From Parvibaculum indicum (lineage in GTDB: Bacteria > Pseudomonadota > Alphaproteobacteria > Parvibaculales > Parvibaculaceae): a stretch of DNA of 64,000 nt. Position 1 is the stretch's first letter, and each line of letters begins with the position of its first letter. This document shows, in pieces, positions 52,609 through 57,477 of this stretch. The position numbers were made by a program, and so were the translations under genes. The DNA lies in assembly GCF_011762095.1 (NCBI RefSeq), contig NZ_JAASQO010000008.1, positions 124,001 through 188,000 of the forward strand, given 5' to 3'. The notes under the pieces are model-generated. The model had not been told where the DNA came from. It saw nothing but the letters and a program-made list of their open reading frames with translations, and made no database searches.

Positions 52609-54270
52609 ATGACCGACCGGTTGCGTATTGCGCTGGCCCAGCTCAACCCCACGGTGGGCGACATAAAGGGCAATCTGGAAAAGGCAATCGAGGCCCGCCG
52701 CGAGGCCGAACTGGCGGGCGCGGATCTGATCGTCTTTCCGGAGCTCTTCATTGCCGGCTATCCGCCCGAGGATTTGGTGCTACGCCCCGCCTTCCAGCGT
52801 CGGGCGAGGGAGGCGGTCGTCCAGCTTGCCGAGCAGACCGCTGATGGAGGCCCGGCCGTCCTGATCGGTGCGCCCTGGAAAGAAGAGGACAAGCTCTACA
52901 ATGCCGTCCTCTATCTGGATAAGGGAGAGGTGCAGGCCCATCGCTACAAGGTGCGTCTGCCCAATTACGGCGTCTTCGACGAACCTCGCGTCTTCGACGA
53001 GGGCCCGCTGCCCGGACCGATCGATATTCGCGGTGTGCGCATAGGCGTGCCGATCTGCGAAGACATCTGGTACCCCGATGTTGTGGAGTGTCTGGAGGAG
53101 ACCGGCGCGGAGCTGCTGCTCGTGCCGAACGGCTCGCCTTACGACTTCGACAAATTCGATTCCCGCATGCAGCTTGCCATCCGGCGCATTCAGGAAAGCG
53201 GCTTGCCGCTGGCCTATCTGAACCAGATCGGCGGGCAGGACGAGCTGGTTTTCGACGGCGGTTCTTTCGTGCTGAACGCGGATCTCTCTCTCGCCGTCCA
53301 GATGCGTACATGGGAGCAGGAAATCCTCGTCACCGACTGGGTGCGGGAGCCGCATGGCTGGGTCTGTGCAAAGGGCGAGTGCGCCGAGGTGCCGGAAGGC
53401 GACGAGGCCATTTATCTCGCCACCGTGCGCGGCCTTCGCGACTATGTGAAGAAGAACCATTTCCCCGGCGTGGTGCTGGGGCTGTCCGGCGGTATCGACA
53501 GCGCGCTCGTCGCCGCACTGGCCGTCGATGCGCTGGGCGCGGAAAACGTCCACTGCGTGATGCTGCCATATCGCTATACCTCGTCGGAAAGCCTCGAAGA
53601 CGCGGAAGCCTGCGCCAAGGCGCTGGGCGTACGCTATGACATCGTGCCCATAGAAGAACCGGTGGTCGGGTTCACCAATGCGCTGGAAAAGATGTTCGAG
53701 AACACACAGTCGGACACGACGGAAGAAAACATCCAGTCGCGCTCGCGCGGCCTCATCCTGATGGCGATTTCGAACAAATTCGGCTCCATGCTGCTGACCA
53801 CCGGCAATAAATCCGAAGTCTCCGCGGGCTATGCCACGCTTTATGGCGACATGAATGGCGGCTTTAATCCGATCAAGGATCTCTACAAGAGCCGCGTCTT
53901 CAAACTCGCCGCTTGGCGCAACGCGCACATGCCCAAAGGTGTGCTAGGGCCCGAAGGCGAGGTGATCCCCGAGCGCATCATCACCAAGCCGCCAAGCGCC
54001 GAACTCCGTCCCGACCAGAAGGATGAGGACAGCCTGCCGCCTTATGAGGTGCTGGACGATATTCTCGAATGTCTGGTCGAGCATGAAATGCCCGTGCGGG
54101 ATATTGTCGACCGAGGCCATGACCGCGCGCTGGTACACCGGGTGGAAAACCTGCTCTTCGTCTCCGAATACAAGCGCCGCCAGGCGGCGCCCGGGGTAAA
54201 ACTCTCCTCGCGCAATTTCGGGCGCGACCGCCGCTATCCCATCACCAACGGGTTCCGCGATGTCGACTGA
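52609..54270 (+). CDS. nadE: Glutamine-dependent NAD+ synthetase
   Basis: A 553-residue two-domain NAD synthetase. The N-terminal nitrilase-type glutaminase carries the triad Glu45 ([14 protein letters not shown]), Lys113 ([13 protein letters not shown]) and Cys149 ([12 protein letters not shown]). The C-terminal synthetase has the ATP-pyrophosphatase loop [20 protein letters not shown] with Ser293, and [20 protein letters not shown] and [20 protein letters not shown]. It converts deamido-NAD, glutamine and ATP to NAD. The last 11 bp overlap the start of gltX, so the two are translationally coupled. Confidence 0.95.
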
Positions 54271-55618
54271 GGCTCCCGAGGTTATCGTCCGCTTCGCGCC
54301 GAGCCCCACGGGCCGCCTCCATGTGGGCAATGCTCGCACGGCGCTTTTCAACTGGCTCTTCGCCAGGAAAGCCGGCGGCAAATTCATGCTCCGCTTGGAT
54401 GATACCGACGACGAGCGCTCCACCGAGGAATATGCCCATGGCATCGTCGAGGACCTCGGCTGGCTCGGCCTCGTCCATGACATCCTCGACCGCCAGTCGA
54501 ACCGCATGGCCGAATATGACAAGGCGGCGGAAAAACTGAAGGCGGAAGGGTTGCTCTATCCCTGTTATGAAACGCCTGAAGAGCTGGAGATGAAGCGCAA
54601 GACGCAGGCCCGGCGCGGCCTGCCACCCGTCTATGACCGGGCGGCGCTTTCGCTCACCGACGAGGATAGGGCGAAGTTGGAAGCCGAGGGCCGGCAGCCG
54701 CATTGGCGCTTCAAGCTGGCGCAGGAAATCACCACCTTTACTGACCTCATTTTCGGCGAGACGAAGGTCGATTGCGCGTCGGTGTCCGATCCGGTGCTGA
54801 TCCGCGGCGACGGGCGCTATCTCTACACGCTGCCGTCCATCGTGGACGACATCGATTTCGGCATCACCCACATCATTCGCGGCGCGGACCATGTGACGAA
54901 TACCGGGGTTCAGGTACAGCTCTTCCGGGTGCTGGGCGGCAGGGTGCCGGTTTTTGCGCATCACTCCATGCTTCAGGGCCCGGAAGGCAAACCGCTGTCC
55001 AAGCGCGATGACGCGGCGGACTTTTCGCTGATGGCCCTGCGCGAGCATGGCGTCGAACCCATGGCGCTCAATGCGCTGCTGGCGCGTCTCGGTACGCCCG
55101 ACCCTGTGGAGGCGACGCTCTCGCTGGATCGTCTGGCCGACGGCTTCGACGTGGCCCGGCTGGGGCGCTCTGACATCCGTTTCGATCTGACCGAACTGGA
55201 CAAGGTGAATGCCGGAACGCTCCACATGCTGGAGTATGACGAGGTGAAGGAGCGCCTTCAGGCGCTGGACTGCGACCTCGGTCCCGATTTCTGGGCCGCC
55301 GTCCGGCCCAACCTGACCCGCTTCGCCGAGGTGAAGGACTGGGTCCGTATCGCCGAAGGCCCCGTGACGCCCGTGATAGACGATCCCGTTTTCGCTTCCC
55401 GGGCGGCGGATCTCTTGCCGGAGGGGGAGTGGGACGAAACCACCTGGAAGGCCTGGACGGATGTGGTGAAAGGGGAAACCGGAGCCAAGGGCAAGGCGCT
55501 GTTCATGCCGCTTCGTCAGGCACTTACCGGCATCGACCATGGACCGGAGCTGAAAAACCTGCTACCTCTGATCGGGCGCGAGCGGGCCGAGGCCCGGCTG
55601 CGCGGCAAAAAGGCCTGA
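54260..55618 (+). CDS. gltX: Glutamyl-tRNA synthetase
   Basis: A 452-residue class I aminoacyl-tRNA synthetase. The HIGH-type motif is [20 protein letters not shown], the KMSKS-type loop is [20 protein letters not shown], and [20 protein letters not shown] lies between them. Many alphaproteobacteria have two GltX proteins, one of which may be a misacylating tRNA-Gln form; which one this is cannot be told here. Its ATG lies inside the nadE coding end (overlap 54260-54270). Confidence 0.94.
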
Positions 55619-55656
55619 TTTCAGGCCGGGTGTAACGGCAGATGAGAGGACCGGCC

Positions 55657-55701
55657 ATGGCCGAGTTCCACATTATTCAGGGTCTCATTATTAGCGGCTG
55701 A
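55657..55701 (+). CDS. Putative Ile-rich leader peptide of cimA
   Basis: A 14-codon ORF, MAEFHIIQGLIISG, with Shine-Dalgarno GAGAGGA 6 bp before its ATG. Four of its last nine residues are Ile in tandem pairs, all encoded by ATT although ATC is the usual Ile codon nearby, plus one Leu. It lies 129 bp before the citramalate synthase gene, whose product feeds isoleucine synthesis, so it looks like an attenuator peptide in which low charged tRNA-Ile would stall the ribosome. It is too short for statistical proof. Confidence 0.6.
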   Translation: MAEFHIIQGLIISG

Positions 55702-55789
55702 CATAGCTCTGCCGCCGCCGTACAAGCACGTCTTAATCTTCCTTTGCTGTAAATGGTCCGGCCGCGGCGGTGGCATCGGTATTTTCTTT
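55694..55789 (+). promoter_or_regulatory. Candidate transcription attenuator of cimA
   Basis: Mutually exclusive folds follow the leader peptide. AGCGGC (55693-55698) can pair with GCCGCC (55711-55716) as a pause hairpin. GCCGCCGCC (55711-55719) can instead pair with GGCGGTGGC (55766-55774), one G-U. A terminator-like hairpin CCGGCC (55758-55763) with GGC (55772-55774) and CGG (55777-55779), followed by TATTTTCTTT (55780-55789), competes for the same bases. This is the layout of amino-acid attenuators; the terminator stem itself is short. Confidence 0.5.
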
Positions 55790-55830
55790 GCGCCTCCTTC
55801 CGGGAGGTGCCGCGAGCGGAAGCGAAAAAG

Positions 55831-57477
55831 ATGAATGCGACGACGAAAGAACGGCTCTACCTCTTCGACACCACGCTGCGCGACGGCGCGCAGACCACGG
55901 GCGTGGATTTCTCGGTCGAGGACAAGCGGCTGATTGCGACCCTGCTGGACGAACTTGGGGTCGATTATGTGGAAGGCGGCTATCCGGGCGCCAACCCCAC
56001 CGATACGGCCTTTTTCGGCGAGAAGCCGGGGTTGAAGCGTGCCATCTTCACCGCGTTCGGCATGACCAAGCGGGCAGGGCGCAGCGCCTCCAACGATCCC
56101 GGACTTGCCGCCATCCTCGACTCCAGCGCCGATGCGGTCTGCCTCGTCGCCAAGACCTGGGACTTCCATGTGGAAGTGGCGCTTGGCATCTCGAATGAGG
56201 AAAACCTCGATAGTATCCGTGAGAGCGTCGAAGCGATCGCCGCCCGCGATCGCGAGCCGATGATCGATTGCGAGCATTTCTTCGACGGCTACAAGGCCAA
56301 TCCCGACTATGCGACGGCCTGCGTGAAGACGGCGCTGGATGCCGGTGCGCGTTGGGCGGTGCTGTGCGATACCAATGGCGGTACGCTGCCGTCCGAGGTC
56401 GAAGCCATCGTGACCGCGCTTGTCGAGGCTGGTGTGCCGGGGGATCGCCTCGGTATCCACACGCATAACGATACGGAAAACGCGGTGGCCAATTCGCTGG
56501 CCGCCGTCCGCGCGGGCGCGCGCCAGATACAAGGCACGCTGAACGGCTTGGGCGAGCGCTGCGGCAATGCGAATATGGTGTCGCTCATCCCGACGCTTCT
56601 TCTGAAGCCTGAATTCGCCGACCGTTTCGAAATCGGCGTAACGCTCGACCAGCTGAAACAGATCACCCATGTCTCCCGCACGCTGGACGAAATCCTGAAC
56701 CGCGCGCCGGACCGTTATGCGCCCTATGTCGGCGAAAGTGCCTTCGCCTCCAAGGCCGGCATCCATGTGTCCGCGCTGCTGAAGGACCCGCGCACCTATG
56801 AACATGTGCCGCCGGAATCCGTTGGCAACAAGCGCAAGATCGCCGTTTCCGATCAGGCCGGCCGGTCGAACATCCTGGCGCGTCTGGAAGAGGCGGGCAT
56901 CGAGGTCGATCCCAAGGACACCAAGATCCAGCGTCTGCTGGACGAGGTGAAGGAACGCGAGTTTCTCGGCTACTCCTATGACGGCGCGGAAGCCTCTTTC
57001 GAGCTGCTGGCGCGTCGCATCCTCGGTCAGGTACCGGAGTTCTTCAATGTGGAGTCCTTCCGCGTGATGGTGGAGCGCCGTTACAACGCGGTGGGCGATC
57101 TCGTGACCGTCTCGGAAGCCACGGTGAAGATGCATGTGGATGGTGATGTGCTCTTCTCAGCGGGTGAGGGGAATGGCCCGGTCAATGCGCTCGATCAGGC
57201 GCTGCGCAAGGATCTGGGCAAGTACCAGCCCTATATCGAAGATCTCCGGCTGGTCGACTTCAAGGTCCGTATCCTGACGAGCGGCACGGAAGCGGTTACC
57301 CGCGTCATGATCGAAAGCGTGGATGGGGAAGGCCGCCGCTGGTTCACGGTCGGCGTCTCGCCCAATATCGTCGATGCGTCGTTCCAGGCGCTCAGCGACA
57401 GCATCACCTACAAGCTGCTTCGCGACGGTGCGCCTTTGCCGACCCAGCACAACCGCAAGGAGAAAGTGCGGAGCTGA
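55831..57477 (+). CDS. cimA: (R)-citramalate synthase
   Basis: A 548-residue enzyme of the isopropylmalate/citramalate synthase family that condenses pyruvate and acetyl-CoA to citramalate, the first step of the threonine-independent isoleucine route. The start LFDTTLRDGAQTTGVDFSVE is CimA-type, DTNGGTLPSEVE and GIHTHNDTENAVANSLAAVR carry metal ligands, and the C-terminal regulatory LeuA-dimer domain (about residues 400-520) is present, allowing isoleucine feedback. ATG 55831 is chosen because the family start follows at once; the in-frame ATG 55753 lies in the leader. The leader peptide and attenuator-like folds lie upstream. Confidence 0.93.
   Translation: MNATTKERLYLFDTTLRDGAQTTGVDFSVEDKRLIATLLDELGVDYVEGGYPGANPTDTAFFGEKPGLKRAIFTAFGMTKRAGRSASNDPGLAAILDSSADAVCLVAKTWDFHVEVALGISNEENLDSIRESVEAIAARDREPMIDCEHFFDGYKANPDYATACVKTALDAGARWAVLCDTNGGTLPSEVEAIVTALVEAGVPGDRLGIHTHNDTENAVANSLAAVRAGARQIQGTLNGLGERCGNANMVSLIPTLLLKPEFADRFEIGVTLDQLKQITHVSRTLDEILNRAPDRYAPYVGESAFASKAGIHVSALLKDPRTYEHVPPESVGNKRKIAVSDQAGRSNILARLEEAGIEVDPKDTKIQRLLDEVKEREFLGYSYDGAEASFELLARRILGQVPEFFNVESFRVMVERRYNAVGDLVTVSEATVKMHVDGDVLFSAGEGNGPVNALDQALRKDLGKYQPYIEDLRLVDFKVRILTSGTEAVTRVMIESVDGEGRRWFTVGVSPNIVDASFQALSDSITYKLLRDGAPLPTQHNRKEKVRS

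Follow-up and report, generated by a model that had tools for sequence, protein, structure and literature searches.

A candidate isoleucine-responsive leader upstream of the citramalate synthase gene in Parvibaculum and its relatives

Introduction

Citramalate synthase is the entry to isoleucine from pyruvate, and many bacteria use it in place of threonine deaminase. In the DNA analyzed here, a 64,000-nucleotide stretch of the Parvibaculum indicum genome that we call the window, the gene for this enzyme (cimA) is preceded by a short Ile-rich ORF and by segments able to form competing RNA stems, which an initial annotation of the sequence had read as an Ile-sensing attenuator. The locus raises the question of whether cimA is controlled by a leader peptide that responds to isoleucine and, if so, at which step this control is exerted. 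Comparison of the region among related genomes points to a real, conserved and lineage-specific Ile leader before cimA.

Results and Discussion

Leader ORF and gene context in the window

The coordinates given in the initial annotation proved exact when the sequence was re-read (Table 1), and the leader ORF does have a good Shine-Dalgarno sequence; besides the stop-proximal ATT-ATT pair, a second ATT-ATT occupies 55672-55677. The remark that ATT is uncommon here was also correct, as 11 of the 70 Ile codons pooled from three genes of the window (cimA, gltX and nadE) are ATT. In leaders pooled over related genomes, by comparison, ATT makes up 102 of 162 Ile codons. Our guess is that ATT is preferred there for its low pairing strength next to strand 1.

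Table 1. Positions of the features of the gltX-cimA region, numbered from the first base of the window
Feature	Position	Strand	Remarks and basis
gltX (glutamate--tRNA ligase), upstream gene	54260..55618	+	TIGR00464, 339 bits (cut-off 290)
Hairpin over gltX stop (GGCCTGA TT TCAGGCC)	55612..55627	+	No shuffle control; T-run in the window on the opposite strand only
Shine-Dalgarno of leader ORF (AGAGGA)	55645..55650	+	Direct reading
Leader ORF MAEFHIIQGLIISG	55657..55701	+	14 codons; ATG 55657, TGA 55699-55701; between gltX and cimA
Stop-proximal Ile-Ile pair (ATT ATT), likely control codons	55687..55692	+	Ile at -4/-3 in 36/37 leaders
Strand 1 (GCGGC), inside leader, can pair with strand 2	55694..55698	+	96.1% of cells, 31 sequences
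Strand 2 TGCCGCCGCC, common to stems 1:2 and 2:3	55710..55719	+	Alignment A2, pairing count
Loop between strands 2 and 3	55720..55757	+	Starts with conserved GTACAAGCACG
Weak terminator-like hairpin CCGGCCGC..GTGGCATCGG with T-rich tail TATTTTCTTT	55758..55789	+	Lenient scan, -10.3 kcal/mol
Strand 3 GGCGGTGGCA, partner of strand 2 in antiterminator-like stem 2:3	55766..55775	+	94.5% of cells paired
cimA Shine-Dalgarno (GGAAG)	55818..55822	+	Direct reading
cimA, citramalate synthase	55831..57477	+	TIGR00977, 629 bits (cut-off 450)

Dinucleotide-preserving shuffles of the 212-nt intergenic region gave a short ORF with four Ile in a ten-residue span in 12 of 3000 cases, and among stretches of equal length taken from both strands of the window, 4 of 2408 held a short ORF with an equally dense Ile cluster. 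The RNA fold of the region was not unusual compared with shuffles (z = 0.31 and z = 0.33), and an Rfam search of 501 bases returned chance matches only, none of them near a gathering score, which gives no sign of a T-box or metabolite riboswitch. On its own, the window makes a modest case for a leader; we regard the feature as real because it is conserved across relatives.

The assignment of the downstream gene to citramalate synthase was confirmed by a TIGR00977 score well over the cut-off. Models for threonine deaminase (TIGR01124 and TIGR01127) stayed below their cut-offs in the window's genome, in which they detected distant relatives only (best score, 61 bits), and the same models pass their cut-offs in just 2 and 5 of 14 control genomes. 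With cimA encoding the Ile-specific step, the missing deaminase match agrees, if weakly, with a supply of 2-oxobutyrate by CimA.

The initial annotation had cautioned that no clear promoter follows gltX, and a consensus promoter scan of the window indeed found none. Among 26 genus sequences, 17 have their highest-scoring T-tailed hairpin before the leader located across the gltX stop, a count made without shuffle control, and the corresponding family total of 28/37 takes in hairpins inside gltX that are probably spurious. The hairpin at the gltX stop is a probable gltX terminator that covaries among relatives. Its occurrence at the end of gltX in many genus members suggests that the leader and cimA may often form a separate transcription unit. 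The arms of this hairpin change between sequences yet stay self-complementary (CTAACGG/CCGTTAG, CTAACCCG/CGGGTTAG, AAGTCTT/AAGACTT), often with a T-run.

Conservation of the leader in the family

Of 40 family genomes, 39 have the leader element, and in all of these it comes with an Ile-rich ORF. This bore out the conservation in relatives that the initial annotation had named as a check. Such an ORF occupied the leader position in all 37 family genomes examined, as well as in G446 and G447, two family genomes that were left out of RNA model building. The sole exception among the 40 was G015 (84% complete), for which neither the DNA search nor the RNA model returned a match. The DNA search detected the region in 26 of 27 genus genomes, the window's own counted, and the best-conserved piece consisted of the leader end and the DNA following it. 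The Ile-specific leader peptide proposed before cimA is kept across five genera: leaders read in the window's genus include MNPAHSIIQGLIISG, MSPALSIITGLIISG, MATKRQAIIGILIIRG, MALKRRAIIWTVIITG and MWSVLHIMKALIISS, and those of four other family genera MNIINAIIIKGLIISG, MKTIKWIIKGLIIRG, MMALAWIIIKGIIIRG, MALATRAIIIKGMITWGS and MIRLRASARIIIGTIIISG.

Leaders range from 14 to 19 residues across the family and contain 3 to 7 Ile. At least three Ile were found in 34 of 37 leaders when counted from the nearest ATG; in L025, L056 and L058, which have an internal ATG, counting from the upstream ATG gives 3, 4 and 4 Ile, respectively. Counted back from the stop, codons -4 and -3 are both Ile in 36 of 37 leaders, the exception being L056, a member of genus g4. 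This genus lacks the control pair, as both L056 and its genus mate G447 end in ITWGS (GMITWGS). Of the 22 distinct leaders with 11 codons or more, 21 have Ile at -9 and 19 at -8, codons -11 and -10 are unconstrained, and all 22 have Gly (GGC) at -1 and Leu, Val or Ile at -5. L025, L056 and L058 are absent from this codon table, as they come out shorter than 11 codons when read from the nearest ATG; the last residue of both L025 and L056 is Ser. Pairwise differences between leaders at codon positions 1, 2 and 3 numbered 720, 615 and 813. This third-position excess is only slight and does not demonstrate selection on the peptide as such; what is kept is the frame, the Ile residues and the position.

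To judge how specific an Ile cluster is to the family, we compared the family regions with cimA loci from outside it. A short upstream ORF with four Ile within ten residues was found in 35 of 39 family regions versus 1 of 102 outside regions, and one with three Ile within ten residues in 39 of 39 versus 16 of 102. The outside set comprised 102 of the 104 loci L068-L171 (L116 and L146 were omitted, as the cimA start motif was not found in them), that is, 78 of the best 80 of 586 loci plus 24 loci from 236 non-family genomes with a match. It should be noted that this set covers part of the existing cimA loci, with more distant cimA genes lying beyond it, that L072 and L120 have shorter upstream DNA and that L073 and L168 apparently come from the same genome.

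With the RNA model, 39 family genomes each gave one strong match (E value of 1e-3 or better), G022 excepted, and further matches in the family had E values of 0.04-0.5. In G022, a second copy of the leader element (G022:C33:6288-6370, L210) resembles the cimA copy and lies near a contig end; it is probably an assembly duplicate.

Distribution outside the family

A strict sequence pattern matched 4 of 386 genomes of the class, all of them in the family, although it is insensitive and missed the family genomes G028 and G035 in the same sample. We also searched 387 class genomes with the RNA model, which was built from 31 sequences, under stricter filters. All six family genomes were recovered at an E value of 1e-3 or better, and outside the family there were ten matches with per-genome E values of 0.009-0.05, which is below the chance expectation over 381 genomes. 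Six of these matches (G246, G071, G068, G442, G198 and G435) were rejected as cimA leaders since their coordinates are away from cimA; of the remaining four (G430, G337, G048 and G165), the last two had no cimA match at the threshold. As neither the pattern nor the RNA model detected the element outside the family, it tracks the window's lineage, and from these sequence searches it looks like an invention of this family. In the named collection, the nearest cimA is that of Hyphomicrobium (73% identity), which places the window in the Alphaproteobacteria, and records close to the window may be absent there.

Within the window's genome, no convincing second leader copy was found with a pattern of the strand 2 region, which had two matches, one of them the known site. 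Inspection of the top three ORFs per ilvB locus in 13 genus genomes revealed no convincing Ile/Leu/Val leader before this gene. A Leu-rich short ORF was observed before the 2-isopropylmalate synthase gene in the window's genome (G000:C9; L172:804-893) and in two genus mates (L175 and L176); these ORFs read MNATRHIAVLGLDLPLLRTGLLARALLCA, MNRVLHIADLALSLALLGKGTLLRA and MERNRHIAPGRTLGLDLALLRGALLCA. They represent 3 of 5 2-isopropylmalate synthase loci, all five genes being confirmed by NCBIfam (NF002991), and no Leu-rich ORF was seen at L174 (genus g3) or at L173, the second 2-isopropylmalate synthase gene of the window's genome. The ORF is a probable Leu leader, and amino-acid leaders thus seem to be in use in the window's genus.

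Mutually exclusive stems

The initial annotation had proposed a stem between 55711-55719 and 55766-55774, and this part was upheld: the two segments (GCCGCCGCC and GGCGGTGGC) are complementary with one G-U pair, and their pairing excludes the stem that strand 2 can form with the leader end. Downstream of the leader stop, the order is GCCGCCGCCGTNC (strand 2), loop and CCGGYCGGYGGC (strand 3). Pairing of strands 2 and 3 was found in 94.5% of 310 cells, compared with 11-66% when the partner was slid by 1 to 3 columns. Letter shuffles still paired in 93.0% of cells because these columns hardly vary, and 3 of 500 shuffles reached the observed value. Changes on both sides of the stem were seen in 1 of 9 pairs in one count and in 2 of 10 in another, the latter being matched by 331 of 500 shuffles. 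Thus, the covariation suggested as a further check exists in a few double-sided pairs, but at a level that shuffles often reach, a weakness that reflects the conserved sequence of the stem core. Alignment A2 does not contain identical sequences or L020, in which an insertion of ~100 nt separates strand 1 from strand 2.

Pairing between strands 1 and 2 is possible in 96.1% of cells, and a register slid by +3 scored equally high; the 1:2 register is ambiguous because strand 2 is a repeat. In several members of g3 and in g5, a long 1:2 hairpin could form (GCGGCUAAU AGC AUUGGCCGC and GCGGCUG AACCC CAGCUGC). Equilibrium folds of 24 representatives, calculated without a ribosome, contained stem 2:3 in 14 (the window included), stem 1:2 in 9 and neither in 1. 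Given this preference for 2:3, an off state, if there is one, must in many species require that 1:2 forms first, during transcription. Judged from these pairings, the region before cimA is likely a two-way RNA switch of mutually exclusive stems.

Two further elements were observed around the stems. The start of the loop (55720-55730) has a conserved sequence (GTACAAGCACG, GTTCGAGCACG or GTTCGCTCACG), even though the 2:3 model leaves most of it unpaired. In addition, 33 of 37 sequences have a box (TAACGGC, CAACGGC, GAACGGC or GTACGGC) starting ~19-37 nt 5' of the leader ATG (55633-55639 in the window), and this box is complementary to strand 2 at its GCCGT[A/T]C end. Its variable base appears to co-vary in g2 (GTACGGC/GCCGTAC, L061), g4 and g5 (GAACGGC/GCCGTTC), and not in the window's genus. 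The box may act as an additional strand or belong to a promoter.

Proposed mechanism

We consider it probable that the region controls cimA in cis, as a leader that responds to isoleucine through ribosome stalling. Four parts of such a leader are seen in the sequences themselves, namely the conserved ORF, the conserved Ile pair (missing from genus g4 alone), the constant location of this pair beside strand 1, and the conserved 2:3 stem. We infer that the leader senses Ile, that the ribosome stalls, that a 1:2 state exists and in which direction cimA is controlled, with the stalling geometry taken from positions, as follows. When Ile-tRNA is plentiful, the ribosome would complete the leader ORF and depart. 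Strand 1 would then fold onto strand 2 during transcription, leaving strand 3 free and cimA expression low. When Ile-tRNA is scarce, the ribosome would halt at Ile codons -4/-3 and cover strand 1, so that 2:3 could form and cimA would be expressed.

Output step

The Ile-sensing attenuator described in the initial annotation stands as regards the conserved Ile leader and the exclusive stems, but not as regards a classical intrinsic terminator. The hairpin proposed for this role (55758-55779, CCGGCCGCGGCGGTGGCATCGG, then TATTTTCTTT) has a short stem and an interrupted T-rich tail, and a standard terminator scan of the window reported nothing on the + strand. A lenient scan recovered it in the window and in a sister sequence (TATTTTCTT and TATTTTCTC, -10.3 kcal/mol). 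L020 has a good terminator (GATTTTTGA, -18.4 kcal/mol), and L006 and L009 have a short one with TTTT. A T-run is often missing in relatives, in that 13 of 32 sequences had no hairpin followed by 4 T in the next 8 bases (a count made without shuffle control and without L010, L013, L014, L053 and L057). Over 13 lineages, strand 3 paired with downstream DNA (3:4) no more than in shuffles (Fisher P = 0.36); in a set of nine genus sequences that includes four from one subclade, the result was marginal (P = 0.046).

Six sequences (L012, L015, L016, L019, L051 and L053) have ~35-215 nt of extra DNA between strand 3 and cimA compared with close relatives. This suggests an output that works at variable distances from the start of cimA, which fits termination. 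The extra DNA in these six sequences and in L020 is repeat-like and partly palindromic, and the leader ORF is intact in all of them. As the output, we favor a premature end of transcription within or beyond strand 3, somewhat ahead of occlusion of the ribosome site. Termination would be intrinsic in a few species and perhaps be helped by Rho or NusG where the T-run is missing.

Occlusion of the ribosome site would amount to translational attenuation, a serious competitor that we nevertheless hold to be rather less probable than its negation. Once 1:2 has formed, the loop between strands 2 and 3 would pair with the ribosome-binding region of cimA; a stalled ribosome would keep this loop within the 2:3 hairpin, and Ile shortage would thereby free the cimA site with no change in termination. 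In the window, CTTCC at 55738-55742 in this loop is complementary to the cimA Shine-Dalgarno sequence. Over 13 lineage representatives, loops paired better with the ribosome site of the same genome than with those of others (mean of -11.7 versus -9.6 kcal/mol, P = 0.0016, 20,000 permutations), although in 3 of the 13 the own site ranked 10th or lower of 13, and loops compared with their own shuffled versions gave no significant signal (Fisher P = 0.13 for 13 representatives, 0.11 for the 12 without insertion). A subclade of 10 sequences keeps a 9-bp stem between loop and ribosome site in 97.6% of 84 cells, with one double change from G-C to A-U, which is shared by two sister sequences and counts as one event, and two one-sided changes. 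However, shuffles matched the level of pairing in 20 of 500 cases and the count of double-sided changes in 225 of 500, and in L006 and L009 a gap runs across this stem. In genus g4, the loop (GCCTAACTTCCC) and ribosome-site (AAGTTAGG) segments are identical in two species whose DNA between them has diverged. Pairing between a leader and a ribosome site also has a published precedent in the LEU element of actinobacterial leuA (PMC1262725). Against this, loop/ribosome-site pairing in L012, L015, L016, L019 and L051 was no better than in shuffles, and the extra DNA before cimA in the six sequences named above speaks against a strict requirement for it, at least there. It should also be noted that the idea was formed on the data on which it was scored, and that accessibility cannot be compared between the two states without bias, given that a longer sequence always forms more pairs.

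The output need not be the same in all species. A tentative possibility, which we regard as doubtful, is that the two halves of the sensor evolve separately: all five genera would have kept the Ile leader and the stem switch, whereas the output platform would have turned over from species to species, with an intrinsic terminator in L020, perhaps also in L001 and L006, and a 2-3 loop that occludes the ribosome site of cimA in genus g4 and the L007 subclade. If so, the leaders of g4 and the L007 subclade would be translational Ile attenuators on citramalate synthase.

Two other explanations concern the conserved ORF. In one, a small molecule, and not a lack of Ile-tRNA, would cause the conserved C-terminus (II-x-GL-II-S/T/R-G) to halt the ribosome through the exit tunnel. 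Some arrest leaders have Ile/Val-rich motifs, and residues other than Ile are kept at the C-terminus (Gly at -1 and Leu, Val or Ile at -5, as noted above). Yet residue -2 varies among Ser, Thr and Arg, residue -7 among Gln, Trp, Gly, Lys, Thr and His, and the number of Ile from 3 to 7, and the controlled gene belongs to Ile biosynthesis; the conservation of Gly is explained with no role for the peptide, since its GGC codon lies in strand 1. Nascent-peptide arrest is therefore very unlikely. It is just as improbable that the ORF is a by-product of a structured RNA or a small-RNA source that merely reads Ile-rich: conservation does run beyond the ORF into the loop (GTNCNNNCACG), where the stems do not explain it, and the third-position excess is slight, but across five genera the leaders, for all their differences in DNA and length, share their reading frame, start, stop and Ile residues, and the RNA model finds one strong match per genome in 39 genomes, G022 aside.

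Comparison with known systems

The preferred reading, an Ile-responsive leader acting through ribosome stalling, resembles the ribosome-mediated amino-acid attenuators of proteobacteria, known from the trp, his, leu and ilv leaders, of which the 2004 study by Vitreschak et al. is said to be the main survey. Like these, the cimA leader is short, rich in the amino acid that is the product of the pathway, located before a biosynthetic gene and provided with control codons adjoining the stop; its stop codon would lie in the 1:2 loop, and 2:3 would exclude the possible 1:2 stem. It differs from them in that the target is cimA instead of ilv or leu genes, in that no intrinsic terminator is conserved, and in that no Rfam match came near a gathering score. 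In the alphaproteobacteria, an ilvB leader peptide is credited to Vitreschak et al. (2004) in PMC1273637.

Leader peptides with no obvious terminator are described for cys operons of Actinobacteria in PMC1262725, which also presents the LEU element of actinobacterial leuA, for which pairing between the Leu codons and the leuA Shine-Dalgarno sequence has been proposed. The cimA leader shares with the actinobacterial ones the abundance of an amino acid, the lack of an obvious terminator and a possible pairing with the Shine-Dalgarno sequence of a biosynthetic gene. It differs from the LEU element in phylum, gene and amino acid, and its candidate pairing partner is the 2-3 loop and not the codon run. 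A translational attenuator is known for ermC, which, according to PMC2965389, senses a general slow-down with no amino-acid specificity. A leader ribosome stalled before cimA would, as in ermC, refold RNA around the downstream ribosome site, but the cimA leader, unlike that of ermC, has conserved Ile codons.

Among the matches listed for the open-licence PMC literature, no report of cimA attenuation was found, which is not proof of absence. The cimA leader apparently combines a known principle with a new target and a non-classical output. Because one defining feature of the classical systems, the intrinsic terminator, is missing in many relatives, we describe it as a variant of the amino-acid attenuator. 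It would extend leader-peptide control to citramalate synthase and give isoleucine its own sensor, separate from that for leucine. With the sensing part conserved and the terminator not, this family may provide a natural test of how an attenuator changes its output while keeping its input.
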